Shown here piece by piece: positions 4,655 through 45,460 of a stretch of DNA of 64,000 nt. The position numbers were made by a program, and so were the translations under genes. The notes beneath the pieces were generated by a model that did no database searches, had not been told where the DNA came from, and saw only the letters and a list, made by a program, of their open reading frames with translations. The first letter of the stretch is position 1; each line of letters starts with the position of its first letter. This DNA is from Thiobacillus denitrificans (lineage in GTDB: Bacteria > Pseudomonadota > Gammaproteobacteria > Burkholderiales > Thiobacillaceae), in the NCBI GenBank assembly GCA_020725005.1, contig DYFW01000001.1, positions 1-64,000 of the forward strand, read 5' to 3'.

Positions 4655-5158
4655 TCAACGGATCGCGTCGATGTCGAAGCGCTTGTCCTGGATCTGCGGG
4701 ATGATCAGCGCGTAGCCCTGTTGCTGCCAATGCGCGAGTTCGGTAATGGCGTTCGGCACGACTTCGACGAAACCCTGCATGTCCTCGATGCGGTAGCCAA
4801 AGTCGGCCATCGCCTGGCCACACACCCGGAACGACACGCCCAGGTCGGCGTAGTAGCGCATGCGGTCGACGGCTTCCTGGTATCTCGCCTCGTTGTGCCT
4901 GGCCACGGTCACGATTTCGGTGCCGTGGATCACCACCACGATCTTGTTGTCCTCGGCCGCGTAGTCGTAGGGCGATCCCTGCAGCGTATTGACCAGCGAG
5001 CGCACCCAGAACAGGGCGCTGCCGATCTTCTGCGGGTTGTCGAAATAGAAGTCGAACAGCACCCGCGCCGGCGCATACGGGGTGGCGACCGGCTTGCCCG
5101 CCGCCAGTGCAGAAGCCGCCAGCCCCAGCGAAAGAAACAAAGCCAGAAGAGTTTTCAT
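4655..5158 (-). CDS. Exported DsrE/DsrF-like protein
   Basis: A 167-residue protein with a clear Sec signal peptide (MKTLLALFLSLGLAASALAA). The mature part has the DsrE alpha/beta pattern: ARVLFDFYFDNP, KIVVVIHGTEI, and VSFRVCGQAMADFGY with a cysteine at 113 where DsrE proteins carry their sulfur-binding cysteine. The C-terminus is FVEVVPNAITELAHWQQQGY. A periplasmic role in sulfur-atom handling is inferred. It lies 33 bases downstream of rsgA on the same strand, with an AGGAGA ribosome-binding site. It is a distant relative of the DsrE-like lipoprotein and the anti-sigma domain 3-4 kb away. Confidence 0.78.
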   Translation of the reverse strand: MKTLLALFLSLGLAASALAAGKPVATPYAPARVLFDFYFDNPQKIGSALFWVRSLVNTLQGSPYDYAAEDNKIVVVIHGTEIVTVARHNEARYQEAVDRMRYYADLGVSFRVCGQAMADFGYRIEDMQGFVEVVPNAITELAHWQQQGYALIIPQIQDKRFDIDAIR

Positions 5159-7545: not shown

Positions 7546-7986
7546 TCAGGGCTTGATGTAGGTGTAGCCCTCGCGCGCCTGCACTTTGGCGACTTCCGCC
7601 ACGCCGGAGGGTACGATCTTGGCGCCCTTGACGACGGCGCTGGGGTCGAGATTGCGCGATTTCAGCGTGTTGTTGCAGACGCGGAAATCGACCTTCTTGG
7701 CCATCAGGTCGTCGATGCGGGGCTGATAGGGGTTGCCGTCCTTGTCGGTGGCATCCTGCAGCAGGAAGTCGATGCCCTTGCCGTGGGTGACGACGATGAT
7801 CTGGTCCTTCGGCGAGGCCGCCAGCTGGTTCTTGATGTTGTTCATCGCAGCCATCGCGGTGGCGCTGTCGTTGATGTGGTAGACGGTCTTGATCGGTGGC
7901 GCATCCTGTTCGGTGGTCGCGCAGCCGGTCAGGCCCAGAACGGCCACCATCGAGGCGGCGGCCAGCATTTTCGACATGTTCAGCAT
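7546..7986 (-). CDS. DsrE-like lipoprotein, divergent from the ECF sigma operon
   Basis: A 146-residue protein with a lipobox LTGC (Cys22), so probably anchored to the outer or inner membrane on the periplasmic side. The mature part shows the DsrE pattern: KTVYHINDSATAMAAMNNI, QIIVVTHGKGIDFLL, then VDFRVCNNTLKSRN with Cys104 at the family cysteine position, and VPSGVAEVAKVQAREGYTYIKP. The same end (GWTYVKV) and a matching cysteine occur in the anti-sigma protein encoded on the other side of the promoter region. The start at 7986 has a good GGAGGA site at 7997-8002. An ECF-type promoter (8046-8071) precedes it. Function is unknown; sulfur-species binding is inferred. Confidence 0.8.
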   Translation of the reverse strand: MLNMSKMLAAASMVAVLGLTGCATTEQDAPPIKTVYHINDSATAMAAMNNIKNQLAASPKDQIIVVTHGKGIDFLLQDATDKDGNPYQPRIDDLMAKKVDFRVCNNTLKSRNLDPSAVVKGAKIVPSGVAEVAKVQAREGYTYIKP

Positions 7987-8045
7987 TTTGGGAAACTCCT
8001 CCGTACGTAAGAATTGGCAAGCCGGGTTGCCCGACTTGAAGATAG

Positions 8046-8071
8046 GACGGCGCCCGAAGTACGCTTATTCC
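8046..8071 (-). promoter_or_regulatory. ECF-type promoter of the DsrE-like lipoprotein gene
   Basis: Minus strand reads GGAATAA (8071-8065), 15 bases, CGTC (8049-8046). This is the layout of ECF promoters with a GGAA-type -35 and a CGTC -10. The expected start of transcription near 8039 leaves a leader of about 50 bases containing the GGAGGA site. The same two boxes with the same spacing occur on the opposite strand at 8103-8128. Confidence 0.7.
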
Positions 8072-8101
8072 ATGTTTTTGACAAAAATTTTCCGCCACGA
8101 T

Positions 8102-8128
8102 GGGAATAAGTCCGGCGTGGCCGGCGTC
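8102..8128 (+). promoter_or_regulatory. ECF-type promoter of the sigma/anti-sigma operon
   Basis: GGGAATAA (8102-8109), 15 bases, CGTC (8125-8128). It is identical in boxes and spacing to the promoter on the other strand 30 bases away, which supports autoregulation by the sigma factor encoded downstream. Transcription would start close to 8134-8137, at or just before the first ATG (8137). The message would then be nearly leaderless, or translation starts further in. Confidence 0.68.
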
Positions 8129-8136
8129 CAAGGAAC

Positions 8137-8691
8137 ATGACAATGATCTCGACACTGCTTTTTGGCCCGCTGCGAACCGGCATGCAAGCCCAGCGCCCCG
8201 TGCTGTACCGCATCGCCTATGCGTGGTGCCACGACCCGGCGCTCGCCGACGACCTGGTCCAGGAGGCGATGGCCAAGGCGTGGGCGCGGCGTGCCCAGTT
8301 GCGCGACGAGGCCGCGCTCAAGGCGTGGATGGTCTCGATCATGAACCATTGCTGGCTCGATCATCTGCGTGGTCGACGCGACCACGAAGACATCGAAGAA
8401 ATGCACGACGAGCTCGAATCCCCGGTCGACAGCCCCGAGGCCTGCTGCAACCGCGAGCAGGTGATCGCCTGCGTGCGGGCAGCGGTCGCGCGCCTGCCGC
8501 TGGGACAGCGCCAGGTGCTCACCCTGGTCGACCTCGAGGAGTTCGGCTACGCGGACGTGGCCGGGATACTGGAAATCCCCGTCGGCACGGTCATGAGCCG
8601 ACTGTCGCGGGCGCGGGCGAACCTCAAGCGCATGCTGGACCAGAAGGCCGACCAGCAAGGGGCGCAACCCGTGCTGAGGAGAGTGAAATGA
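8137..8691 (+). CDS. ECF-family RNA polymerase sigma factor
   Basis: A 184-residue sigma-70 family protein with only regions 2 and 4. Region 2 spans about residues 22-82 (LYRIAYAWCHDPALADDLVQ, AWMVSIMNHCWLDHLRGR). Region 4 spans about 108-166 (ARLPLGQRQVLTLVDLEEFG, and the helix-turn-helix GILEIPVGTVMSRLSRAR). It should direct transcription from GGAATAA/CGTC promoters on both sides of its 5' region. The start is ambiguous: ATG at 8137 sits too close to AAGGA (8130-8134), ATG at 8143 is better spaced, and the predicted transcript start lies beside both. The stop overlaps the anti-sigma start (ATGA). Confidence 0.93.
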   Translation: MTMISTLLFGPLRTGMQAQRPVLYRIAYAWCHDPALADDLVQEAMAKAWARRAQLRDEAALKAWMVSIMNHCWLDHLRGRRDHEDIEEMHDELESPVDSPEACCNREQVIACVRAAVARLPLGQRQVLTLVDLEEFGYADVAGILEIPVGTVMSRLSRARANLKRMLDQKADQQGAQPVLRRVK

Positions 8692-9425
8692 ACCACACCA
8701 TGATTTCGGACGAAATCCTGCACGCCTTCATCGATGGCCAGCTCGACGTGACCGACAGCGAGGCGCTGATCGCCCGCCTGCGGACCGACCAGGCCCTGGC
8801 GCAGCGCGTTTGCGGCCTGCGCAGCCTGCAGAGCATGGTGCGGCTGGCGTATGCCGAACCGCCGCAGCCGGCGGATGCGCAGCCGCGTCCGCCGCGTGGC
8901 CGGCCGTTGGTGCAACGCTGTGCCCTGGGCTGCCTGATTCTGCTGGCCGGTCTGGTCGCGGGCTGGGGCATGCGCGGCGTCACGGAGACGGAGGCGCCTG
9001 CGAGGACGCCGCTGGCGGCGCTCGGGGGCTACCAGCCGGTGAGCCTCGCGCGGCAGCCCGACCCGAACCGCATCATGCTGCACCTGGACAGCGACGATCC
9101 CGCGCGCATGGCCGCCGTGCTCGACCGCGCCGAAGCCATGCTTGACGAGGCCGAGCGCCAGGGGCGCACGATCGAGCTCGAAATCGTCGCCAACAGCCGC
9201 GGCATCAACCTGATGCGCGACGGGGTCAGCCCGCATGCCGCCCGCATCGTCCGCATGACAAAGCGTCACGCCAACCTCCACCTGGTGGCGTGCAGCCAGA
9301 CCATCGCGCGCTTCACCGGCCAGGGCGAGAAAGTCGAACTGCTGCCGGTGACCCATGCCGCCCCGACCGCCATCGGAGAAATCGTCACCCGGCTCCAGCA
9401 GGGCTGGACCTATGTCAAGGTCTGA
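8688..9425 (+). CDS. Membrane anti-sigma factor with C-terminal DsrE-like domain
   Basis: A 245-residue protein starting within the sigma-factor stop codon, with AGGAGAG ahead of it. Residues 1-55 (ISDEILHAFIDGQLDVTDSE, then a helical part) are a typical anti-sigma domain. One membrane segment spans about 76-96. Residues 125-245 lie outside the cytoplasm and match the DsrE pattern: NRIMLHLDSDDPARMAAVLD, RTIELEIVANSRGINLM, a cysteine at 202 in NLHLVACSQTIARF, and the end GEIVTRLQQGWTYVKV. I infer that it sequesters the ECF factor until its periplasmic domain senses a signal, perhaps a sulfur or thiol species. Confidence 0.8.
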   Translation: MNHTMISDEILHAFIDGQLDVTDSEALIARLRTDQALAQRVCGLRSLQSMVRLAYAEPPQPADAQPRPPRGRPLVQRCALGCLILLAGLVAGWGMRGVTETEAPARTPLAALGGYQPVSLARQPDPNRIMLHLDSDDPARMAAVLDRAEAMLDEAERQGRTIELEIVANSRGINLMRDGVSPHAARIVRMTKRHANLHLVACSQTIARFTGQGEKVELLPVTHAAPTAIGEIVTRLQQGWTYVKV

Positions 9426-11211
9426 GCGCAGCGGAGCACGTGTCTTCCTGCTCCTGGCGCTGTGCCTGCCGCTGGCCGCCGCCGCCTCGGCACTCACCAA
9501 CCGCCTCGCCCAGCATCCTTCGCCCTATCTTGCCCTGCACGGCAGCGATCCGGTTGCCTGGCAGGAATGGAACGCCGACACCGTCGCCCGCGCCCGGCGC
9601 GAGAACAAGCTGCTGTTCGTTTCGGTCGGCTACTTCGCCTGCCACTGGTGCCATGTCATGCAGCGCGAAAGCTTCAAGAATGCGCAGATTGCCGCGCTCC
9701 TCAACCGCGACTACGTCCCGGTCAAGGTCGACCGTGAAATCAACAGCGGACTCGACGACGCGCTGCAAACCTTCTCGGCGCAGCTGAACGGCGCTTCCGG
9801 CTGGCCGCTCAATGCCTTCGTCACGCCGGAAGGCTACCCGGTGTTCGCCGTGTTGTACGCGCCGCCCGACGAATTCCGCACCCAGATTGCGCATCTCAAT
9901 CGGCGCTGGGTCGCCGACCGCGCCGGCTTGCGCGCCCTGGCGCAACAGGCGGCCCCGGCGCCGGCCCGGCTCCCGCTCGGCGCTCCGCTCACGCGGGCGC
10001 GCGTCGAGCGCGCCTGGCAGCAGTTCATCTCCAGCGCATGGAAAGAGGCCGACACGCTGCACGGCGGCTTTGGCCAGATCAGCAAGTTCCCGATGGCGCC
10101 GCAGTTGCATGCGCTACTCGACCAGCAGGCGCGCCAGCCAGACGCCAGGCTGGGCGAGTTCCTGCGCCAGACCTTCGACCAGATGGCCAACCGCGGCCTG
10201 CGCGACCATGTCGGCGGCGGCTTCTTCCGCTACACGGTCGACCCGGCATGGGATACGCCGCATTTCGAGAAAATGCTTTACGACAACGCGCACCTGGCGC
10301 AGCTCTACCTGCGGGCGGCGACCGTGCTGCGCCAGCCGCGCTACCGGGACATCGCGCTGTCGACGCTCGATTTCATGCGCGCCGAAATGCTCGATGCCAG
10401 CGGCGGCTTCTACACCAGCACCTCGGCGGTCGACGACAAGGGGCGCGAAGGCGCGACCTATCTGTGGGAGCCGGACGAGCTCAGGCAGCGCCTGTCGCCG
10501 GCGGCCTTCGCGGCTGCACGCCGGGTGTGGCGGCTCGACGCCGCGCGCGAGTTCGAGGGGGGCTATCTGCCCGCGGAATACCGCACGCCTACCGCCGAGG
10601 AGCGCCGGCTGCTCGCAGAGGCCCTGCGCGCGCTGCAGCCGGTGCGGCTGGCGCGCACGTTGCCCAAGGACGACAAACTCACCGCGGGCCAGAACGGCTT
10701 GGCACTTTCCGCCTTCAGCCAGGCGGCGGCGCTCGACCCAGGCTACCGCCTGCAGGCTGACCGCCTGCAGGCTTTCCTGCTCGCGCAGCTGGTGCGCGAC
10801 GGCAAGCTGATCAAGGCGCGTTCGCGCGGCCAGGTGTTGCCGCACGCCGAGCTCGAAGACTATGCCTATGTGGTGCAGGGCCTGCTCGACCATGCCGACG
10901 CGACCGGCAACGGTGTGTCGCGAACGCGCGCGCGCGAACTGGCGCAGGTGGCCTGGCAGACCTTCTGGAGTGACAAGGGCTGGCGCCTCGAGGCGAGCCC
11001 GCTGCTGGCGACGCTGCAACCGCAACCGGCACTTGCCGATGGAGCCTTGTATTCGCCATCCGACGTGTTGCTATTGTCTACACTGCGTATCCCGGATGCG
11101 GCCTTGCAACGCATGGCGCGCACCGCGGCCGGCTGGAACGTGCCGGCGATGGAGCAGGACGCCTACCTCTATCCGACCCGCCTGCGGCTGTTGACGCAGG
11201 CCGCAAGCTGA
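9412..11211 (+). CDS. Exported thioredoxin-fold DUF255 protein
   Basis: A 599-residue protein with a signal peptide (about residues 1-26, hydrophobic VFLLLALCLPLAAAASA). Its N-terminal thioredoxin-like domain carries NRLAQHPSPYLALHGSDPV and the CxxC motif of YFACHWCHVM (Cys77, Cys80), as in the DUF255/YyaL/SPATA20 family. The rest resembles the family's alpha/alpha-barrel part (FEKMLYDNAHLAQLYLRA, GGFYTSTSAVDDKGREGATYLW) but is shorter than the usual 650-700 residues. The ATG at 9412 overlaps the anti-sigma gene by 14 bases, so it probably belongs to the ECF operon. Export of this family is unusual. The function is unknown; thiol chemistry is plausible. Confidence 0.82.
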   Translation: MSRSERSGARVFLLLALCLPLAAAASALTNRLAQHPSPYLALHGSDPVAWQEWNADTVARARRENKLLFVSVGYFACHWCHVMQRESFKNAQIAALLNRDYVPVKVDREINSGLDDALQTFSAQLNGASGWPLNAFVTPEGYPVFAVLYAPPDEFRTQIAHLNRRWVADRAGLRALAQQAAPAPARLPLGAPLTRARVERAWQQFISSAWKEADTLHGGFGQISKFPMAPQLHALLDQQARQPDARLGEFLRQTFDQMANRGLRDHVGGGFFRYTVDPAWDTPHFEKMLYDNAHLAQLYLRAATVLRQPRYRDIALSTLDFMRAEMLDASGGFYTSTSAVDDKGREGATYLWEPDELRQRLSPAAFAAARRVWRLDAAREFEGGYLPAEYRTPTAEERRLLAEALRALQPVRLARTLPKDDKLTAGQNGLALSAFSQAAALDPGYRLQADRLQAFLLAQLVRDGKLIKARSRGQVLPHAELEDYAYVVQGLLDHADATGNGVSRTRARELAQVAWQTFWSDKGWRLEASPLLATLQPQPALADGALYSPSDVLLLSTLRIPDAALQRMARTAAGWNVPAMEQDAYLYPTRLRLLTQAAS

Positions 11212-45266: not shown

Positions 45267-45375
45267 TGAAAAAGCAGAATGGGAATAAAGACTTAGGCGG
45301 GAAGCCGGGAGCCTTGGGTGACAGCATCACTTTGATTATATTACACTTATCGGTCATGTTTTTAGCGGCGCGGCC

Positions 45376-45460
<85 letters not shown>

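Follow-up and report, generated by a model that had tools for sequence, protein, structure and literature searches.

The closest described relatives of the locus reported here are the systems of S. meliloti RpoE4 and Starkeya novella SigE, in which, as in the present case, a sigma gene is followed by an anti-sigma gene, the promoter is of the GGAAT/CGTC type and there is a link to sulfur metabolism (PMC3511301, PMC6180224, PMC6527743). In S. meliloti, thiosulfate and taurine, from which sulfite is generated, activate RpoE1 and RpoE4, and the sulfite dehydrogenase SorT is under the control of these two factors (PMC3511301). Sulfite is named as the signal, and -35 GGAAT with -10 CGTC as the consensus of sulfite-responsive ECF sigma factors, in PMC6527743, where Starkeya RpoE1 is also reported to respond to tetrathionate; the passages of that report consulted here name a betaproteobacterial group of such factors and do not report the GGAAT/CGTC consensus for it. 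The consensus of group ECF26 is -35 GGAATA and -10 GT, and the mapped S. meliloti rpoE4 promoter contains GGAATAA-N15-CGTC (PMC6180224); the mapped start of sorT is the tenth base past CGTC (PMC6180224, Table 1). The majority of ECF26 sigma factors are accompanied by an anti-sigma factor of the COG5662 type (PMC3511301). The sensing of external sulfur by regulators of sulfur oxidizers has been called poorly understood (PMC11582611).

The present locus lies in a 64,000-nucleotide stretch of Thiobacillus denitrificans DNA (positions 1 to 64,000 of contig DYFW01000001.1, assembly GCA_020725005.1), which we refer to as the window. Its promoter motif has the same boxes and the same spacing as the rpoE4 promoter (PMC6180224), and since such promoters have been published for sulfur-responsive ECF sigma factors it is of a known kind (PMC6180224, PMC6527743); indeed, the motif itself is already known for the sulfite-responsive members. 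The rpoE4 gene is reported to be autoregulated, whereas Starkeya novella SigE is reported not to activate its own promoter. The described target of RpoE4 and SigE is a sulfite dehydrogenase, whereas here DsrE, SoxY and thioredoxin-domain genes take its place in relatives. As in the S. meliloti RpoE1 operon, where a secreted-protein gene with a lipoprotein-15 repeat (SMc01418) is controlled together with the sigma factor, a secreted protein would be co-controlled in the window; however, SMc01418 is the first gene of its operon, whereas the window's counterpart is of the DsrE family and divergent (PMC3511301).

Results

Two exact copies of GGAATAA-N15-CGTC, each with a 15-base spacer, occupy the region that separates the gene of a DsrE-family lipoprotein from that of an ECF sigma factor. 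The copy on the minus strand (8046..8071; -35 at 8071-8065, -10 at 8049-8046) is the putative promoter of the lipoprotein gene, and that on the plus strand (8103..8128; -35 at 8103-8109, -10 at 8125-8128) the putative promoter of the sigma/anti-sigma operon. The positions, strands and equal spacers that the initial annotation had assigned to the two sites proved exact, and its names for the flanking genes agree with a DsrE-family product bearing a lipobox (by eye) on the minus strand and with sigma-70 regions 2 and 4 on the plus strand. It had also considered such a pair unlikely by chance, and in shuffled windows a mean of 0.01 matches was obtained, with two or more matches in 0 of 100 shuffles. 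A further -35 box that it had placed near 45281 is present as GGAATAA at 45282-45288, with GCCG instead of CGTC 15 bases on. This isolated box lies 87 bases upstream of a tRNA-Leu gene (45376-45460).

The leftward gene (7546..7986, minus strand) encodes a DsrE/DsrF-family lipoprotein of 146 residues (PF02635, E 3.1e-13; lipobox LTGC, by eye), the Cys104 of which is invariant (18/18) in an alignment, A2, of 18 DsrE proteins from the window and its relatives. A second DsrE-family protein with a signal-like N terminus is encoded 2.4 kb off (4655-5158, minus strand; PF02635, E 5.9e-13), without the motif. Rightwards, on the plus strand, the ECF sigma gene (8137..8691, with its start at 8137 or 8143; Sigma70_r2 and r4_2) is followed by an anti-sigma gene (8688..9425) that overlaps the sigma stop codon and encodes 245 residues, with an EcfR6-like N terminus and a predicted DsrE-fold C terminus. 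The next gene (9412..11211, plus strand; an ORF start is also possible at 9355) overlaps the anti-sigma gene and is probably the third of the sigma operon; it encodes a Thioredox_DsbH/DUF255 thioredoxin-domain protein (PF03190, E 4.5e-48) with a signal-like N terminus (by eye). A homologue of this gene in genome G043 has a GGAATAA-N15-CGTC of its own, as does one in G261 (family assigned by eye).

With the offset taken from mapped S. meliloti promoters, the lipoprotein-side transcript is predicted to start near 8037, about 50 bases upstream of the ATG at 7986, and the sigma-side transcript at about 8137-8138, coinciding with or adjoining the first sigma ATG, which is separated from CGTC by 8 bases. 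Because this predicted start coincides with the first ATG, the sigma mRNA is probably leaderless, and we predict from sequence that the Thiobacillus sigma transcript (window 8125-8145) is leaderless or nearly so. In the Thiobacillus-type loci (L142-L174 and L203; 34 loci, of which L146, L152 and L174 were not readable by script) the distance from CGTC to the first in-frame ATG is 7-10 bases in 29 of the 31 readable cases and exactly 8 in 24, the outliers being L143 (19) and L173 (12). Most of these loci have a second sigma ATG six bases downstream, and a Shine-Dalgarno sequence was not seen in them by eye; several Sulfuritalea-type loci have a longer sigma leader with a Shine-Dalgarno sequence.

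The window sigma factor (184 residues) belongs to the ECF class (sigma-70 group 4), the members of which are about 180 residues long and have just regions 2 and 4, with PF04542, PF08281 and TIGR02937 all over cut-off. When five outside references were scored against a profile of the window family, RpoE6, the sole ECF26 member among them, came top (134 bits), the others being RpoE5 (ECF15; 81 bits), E. coli RpoE (which we take to belong to group ECF02; 76), RpoE8 (ECF29; 70) and RpoE7 (ECF16; 35). In a tree, RpoE6, RpoE5 and a paralogue from contig C236 of the same genome were grouped (97/93) on long branches, and this group, as a single arm, met the window-family branches at an unresolved fork. 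As the fork leaves the RpoE6 group beside the window family, with long branches meeting, we call the window sigma factor ECF26-like and not a proven ECF26 member. Its motif contains both elements of the ECF26 promoter, GGAATA at -35 and GT at -10 (PMC6180224). The C236 paralogue is the genome's closest sigma factor to that of the window (41 % identical; 120 bits against the family profile). Its operon has the RpoE1 layout, with a small lipoprotein-like gene (lipoprotein-15 likeness by eye), the sigma gene and an anti-sigma gene without DsrE likeness, and has GGAATAA-N15-TGTT upstream. The window and C236 systems may be two sister switches that differ by their -10 box.

The anti-sigma protein comprises an N-terminal part (residues 1-56), a predicted membrane helix (75-96) and a predicted DsrE-fold domain (126-245). 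None of the Pfam and NCBIfam models scored above cut-off, and neither collection supplied a name for it; Pfam DsrE (PF02635) gave no match at E up to 1, because of which the likeness to DsrE is described as remote in sequence. Profile comparison of the outer domain with the DsrE lipoproteins gave a probability of 99.1 and an E of 9.4e-19, and aligned Cys202 (codon 9291-9293) with the invariant Cys104 of the lipoprotein. Among the anti-sigma homologues (best 80 of 224), Cys202 is present in 80/80 and Cys42 in 79/80. An AlphaFold2 model made with 30 aligned sequences has a helical N-terminal part, the helix at 75-96 and a confident alpha/beta domain at 126-245 (pLDDT 85.0 overall and at least 93 in ten-residue blocks from 131 to 240; pTM 0.58 for the whole). 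In a structure search the modelled outer domain matched 1l1s, titled a protein of unknown function, with Z 17.1 and 1.8 A over 110 residues, and further YchN (Z 12.8), DsrEFH (11.7) and TusBCD (11.5). The ten top matches (Z 10.9 to 17.1) stood clear of the rest shown (6.5 or less); six of them are titled DsrE, YchN or TusBCD, and the others are a designed cage or proteins without an assigned function. From rank 11 on, the matches were mainly flavin reductases at Z 6.5 or less; these were taken to reflect a common arrangement and set aside.

The outer domain is thus predicted to adopt the fold of the DsrE/DsrF family (DsrEFH, TusBCD, YchN), but unlike the proteins of that family it is joined through the predicted membrane helix to a putative sigma-binding part. 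The order of the genes, the lone helix and the resemblance to EcfR6 lead us to infer a periplasmic location for the outer domain and binding of the sigma factor by the protein. When just the two sequences were compared, the first 54 residues matched S. meliloti EcfR6 at 17.8 bits. The outer domain of EcfR6, the one S. meliloti ECF26 anti-sigma factor compared, gave no DsrE match, and EcfR6 differs in this respect from the window's protein. An anti-sigma factor with a predicted periplasmic DsrE-fold domain and an invariant cysteine, homologous to the product of the divergent gene, appears to be new: none is described in the titles, abstract starts or consulted passages of the literature matches listed, which is weak evidence of absence. 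The 'dsre' text match in PMC3511301 is the fluorescent protein DsRed.

Of 300 genomes sampled from the order, 33 (hereafter carriers) encode full-length homologues of the anti-sigma factor (E 1.7e-35 or lower); matches at E 1e-5 or better occurred in 54 of the 300, the other 21 being partial or weak. Counting an exact -35 box with CGT and a spacer of 14-18, both promoters are present in 19 of 30 loci (the window's own included), one in 9 and none in 2. A second set, of named loci in which a related anti-sigma gene is present, comprised the best 80 of 224; it overlaps partly with the 300-genome set, and two of its loci, L187 and L194, share one genome. By name these 80 are mostly sulfur oxidizers, with record titles such as Thiobacillus, Hydrogenophilales, Sulfuricella, Sulfuriferula, Sulfuritalea, Sideroxydans, Parasulfuritortus and Rhodocyclaceae, among others, together with a few Gammaproteobacteria (Chromatiales, Thiohalobacter, Ectothiorhodospiraceae), and the closest among the matches listed are Thiobacillus records at about 60-70 % identity, a similarity that by itself makes a Thiobacillus-like source of the window very probable. 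One record titled Rhizobium sp. (L160, JAIBEL010000048.1) carries a locus with 62 % identity to the anti-sigma factor of the window, and its promoters hardly differ from those of T. thioparus (L158); it is probably a mislabelled metagenome bin.

Exact promoters with a spacer of 14-16 were present on the sigma side in 67 and on the divergent side in 70 of the best 80 of 224 loci, with both in 63 and neither in 6. When the anti-sigma proteins of these 80 were clustered at 70 %, the exact pair was found in 24 of 35 clusters, one site in 7 and none in 4; at 50 %, the corresponding numbers were 13 of 19, 3 and 3. The motif, with GGAA and GT kept fixed, and its reversed pattern as a control were searched for in the 600 bases concerned in the 77 of these loci with at least 400 of them (L171, L202 and L213 were left out). 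Exact matching gave 135 sites versus 0 for the reversed pattern, with both promoters in 62/77 loci; one mismatch gave 156 versus 1, with both in 75/77; and two mismatches gave 160 versus 8, with both in 76/77. At every mismatch level the reversed pattern had both sites in 0/77 loci. The commonest deviation affects the last one or two bases of the -35 box (GGAATAT or GGAATAG), the bases 3' of CGTC lean to TT, and in L186, the sole pairless locus of the 77, just one site is present, roughly 1 kb off. Measured from first base to first base, the two -35 boxes are 23 apart in 38 of 63 loci (from the best 80 of 224), otherwise 18-40 and once 93, and 32 in the window; because of this variation, what is conserved is the occurrence of both sites rather than their exact phasing.

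With a DsrE profile built from A2, the best opposite-strand match in the 2.6 kb preceding the anti-sigma gene was DsrE in 71/80 loci (best 80 of 224) and SoxY in 4/80; of the five loci with neither, three have very short upstream sequence. A SoxY gene that is directly divergent was also observed in L022, L025 and L026. SoxY (PF13501) is encoded by 33/33 carriers versus 190/300 genomes drawn from the order, a comparison that ignores kinship. No more than 3 kb separates it from the anti-sigma gene in 11 of the 33 carriers (G020, G034, G067, G079, G082, G124, G150, G187, G190, G227 and G256); in the window's own genome the two are not close, the SoxY gene being on a contig other than that of the sigma locus. 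In G248, SoxY has its own motif 27 bases upstream of a start.

A genome-wide search for the motif, proposed in the initial annotation, returned three exact copies in the window's genome (3.26 Mb, 388 contigs) versus none for the reversed-pattern control, and allowing spacers of 14 to 16 added no exact matches. When one mismatch was allowed there were 17 matches versus 29 for the control, so that one-mismatch sites in this genome are at background level and a regulon list drawn from them was discarded as unusable. The genome's SoxY locus and other DsrE loci (L232-L235, L237 and L238) have no site within one mismatch, and control of those genes by the motif was rejected on this ground; for both these reasons the exact regulon in this genome is very small.

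The third exact copy lies upstream of a gene (L003) that we call SoxB-like, because its product scores 125.7 bits versus a SoxB cut-off of 550; a true SoxB was rejected on this score, which is lowered by the frame being cut at the locus end. The SoxB-like gene is rare, with a match at E 1e-40 in 3 of 40 other genomes of the family, and the motif stands upstream of four of the five copies in the 41 genomes. The copies with at least 47 % identity (the genome's own, L240, L241 and L243; three genomes) have it in 4/4 cases, exact in three (one with a spacer of 14) and with one mismatch in L240, and the copy that is 33 % identical (L242) has no motif upstream.

Genome-wide counts over the 33 carriers were 85 for the exact motif versus 13 for the reversed control, and over 33 other genomes of the order, chosen among the matches listed, 26 versus 21. 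Fourteen of these other genomes have weak or partial anti-sigma matches. Exact sites in G236 and G173 lie 40-46 bases upstream of genes that by eye resemble the window's sigma gene (L088, L101), and a close divergent pair in G135 and one more site in G173 stand before secreted-protein-like genes (L087/L097 and L102). Two carriers, G213 and G291, lack the exact motif genome-wide.

Outside the sigma locus the carriers have 39 motif sites, L003 included, of which about one-third may be background because of the 13 control matches in the same genomes. The downstream proteins of 20 of the 39 were run against Pfam and gave DsrE (4), SoxY (1), Thioredox_DsbH (1), PF03601 (2), GGDEF (5), solute-binding (1), ABC ATPase (1), SoxB-like phosphoesterase (1), oxidoreductase (1) and no family (3). 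Four more genes (L109, L116, L135 and L137) are by eye homologues of those tested, and the other 15 sites, several of them against long open frames, were left unclassified. Families related to sulfur or thiols thus account for 11/39 sites (L116 and L137 by eye) and GGDEF for 5/39. The two PF03601 genes (conserved hypothetical 698, presumably the YeiH putative sulfate exporter family) are transporter-like and stand behind the motif in two carriers from different families (L118, L122). The GGDEF (diguanylate cyclase) genes, L107, L110, L123, L124 and L125 in four carriers, start 26-78 bases past an exact motif, and a link of the window-type sigma factor to cyclic di-GMP is possible.

Discussion

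In the initial annotation the two sites were taken to show what sequence the neighbouring sigma factor probably recognizes, and the relatives support this: both sites are exact in 63 of the best 80 of 224 loci and in 13 of 19 clusters, both are found at one mismatch in 75/77 loci, the motif is enriched in the carriers (85 versus 13), and boxes and spacing are those of the rpoE4 promoter. The annotation had missed the prior publication of the motif and the DsrE-like domain of the anti-sigma factor. From the sequence evidence, it is well supported, though not proven, that the window sigma factor reads GGAATAA-N15-CGTC sites. The idea that the pair consists of two functionless matches, arising by chance or from a repeat, has a negligible probability: one-mismatch sites are indeed at background level in the window's genome, but both boxes and the spacer are kept across divergent loci (156 versus 1 reversed at one mismatch, from the best 80 of 224), and a chance pair is rejected by the shuffles and the genome-wide reversed control as well as by conservation in relatives.

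We therefore consider it likely that the pair represents the divergent, autoregulated promoters of an ECF26-like sigma/anti-sigma switch that is tied to periplasmic sulfur oxidation. Most likely, the two promoters together switch on a self-controlling sigma factor and a sulfur-handling protein. Our working model is that the membrane-bound anti-sigma factor releases the sigma factor, upon which RNA polymerase carrying it would start in both directions, rightwards through the sigma gene, the anti-sigma gene and probably the thioredoxin-domain gene, and leftwards through the DsrE lipoprotein gene. The DsrE domain is the probable sensor. Release would be triggered in the periplasm when Cys202 binds, or receives by transfer, a reactive sulfur species (sulfite, thiosulfate, tetrathionate or a persulfide), a sensing step suggested by the predicted fold and the conservation of the cysteine. 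Such chemistry at Cys202 is possible, since the archaeal protein DsrE3A reacts with tetrathionate to form a cysteine thiosulfonate (PMC4175335). Since it would be produced simultaneously and possesses the equivalent cysteine, the DsrE lipoprotein may remove the sulfur again and so reset the switch. In its most specific form, which we put forward only tentatively and think somewhat less likely than its alternatives taken together, the system would be a one-protein transmembrane sulfur sensor, in which a Sox-pathway intermediate (as a thiosulfonate, persulfide or sulfite adduct) loads the cysteine of the DsrE domain and frees the sigma factor, and the DsrE lipoprotein from the twin promoter unloads it.

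Other explanations of the same data concern the signal and the sigma factor. It is conceivable, if improbable, that the switch senses general envelope or oxidative thiol stress, DsrE being merely a fold and the sulfur link a reflection of the lifestyle of the hosts. Thioredoxin-domain genes are among those bearing the motif (L136 by Pfam, L137 by eye), as are the five GGDEF genes, and SoxY is common in the order at large (190/300 genomes). A general stress sensor would, however, leave the conservation of Cys202 in 80/80 homologues and the opposite-strand DsrE or SoxY gene no more than 2.6 kb away in 75/80 loci (both from the best 80 of 224) to be accounted for, as well as the linkage of SoxY to the anti-sigma gene in 11/33 carriers, and known sigma factors with a GGAAT/CGTC promoter are reported to respond to sulfite (PMC3511301, PMC6527743). 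Still less probable, in our judgement, is that the ECF26-type promoters are read mainly by the C236 sigma factor, or by both sigma factors. Because this related second factor has GGAATAA-N15-TGTT upstream of its own operon, cross-recognition is possible; it is the genome's closest to the window sigma factor and groups with RpoE6 in the tree, and S. meliloti RpoE1 and RpoE4 are reported to cross-activate (PMC6180224). Yet it is with the window-type sigma and anti-sigma genes that the CGTC pair travels, and the C236 operon has TGTT where the window has CGTC. Our preferred reading of the pair remains that of autoregulated promoters of the window's own sigma factor, with a sulfur compound as the proposed signal.

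With the motif itself already described, the apparent novelty lies in an anti-sigma factor of DsrE type and in its association with DsrE and SoxY genes; the present system, related but with different targets, widens the range of a promoter known from sulfite-responsive ECF sigma factors. The locus offers a defined 26-base promoter for use in reporters and one testable cysteine. It also suggests a concrete candidate for a sensor of sulfur compounds outside the cytoplasm, present in records of Thiobacillus, Sulfuricella, Sulfuriferula, Sulfuritalea and Sideroxydans and in some Gammaproteobacteria. If the one-protein sensor is real, it would be the periplasmic counterpart of SoxR and sHdrR, the repressors of sulfur oxidizers described as responsive to sulfane sulfur.
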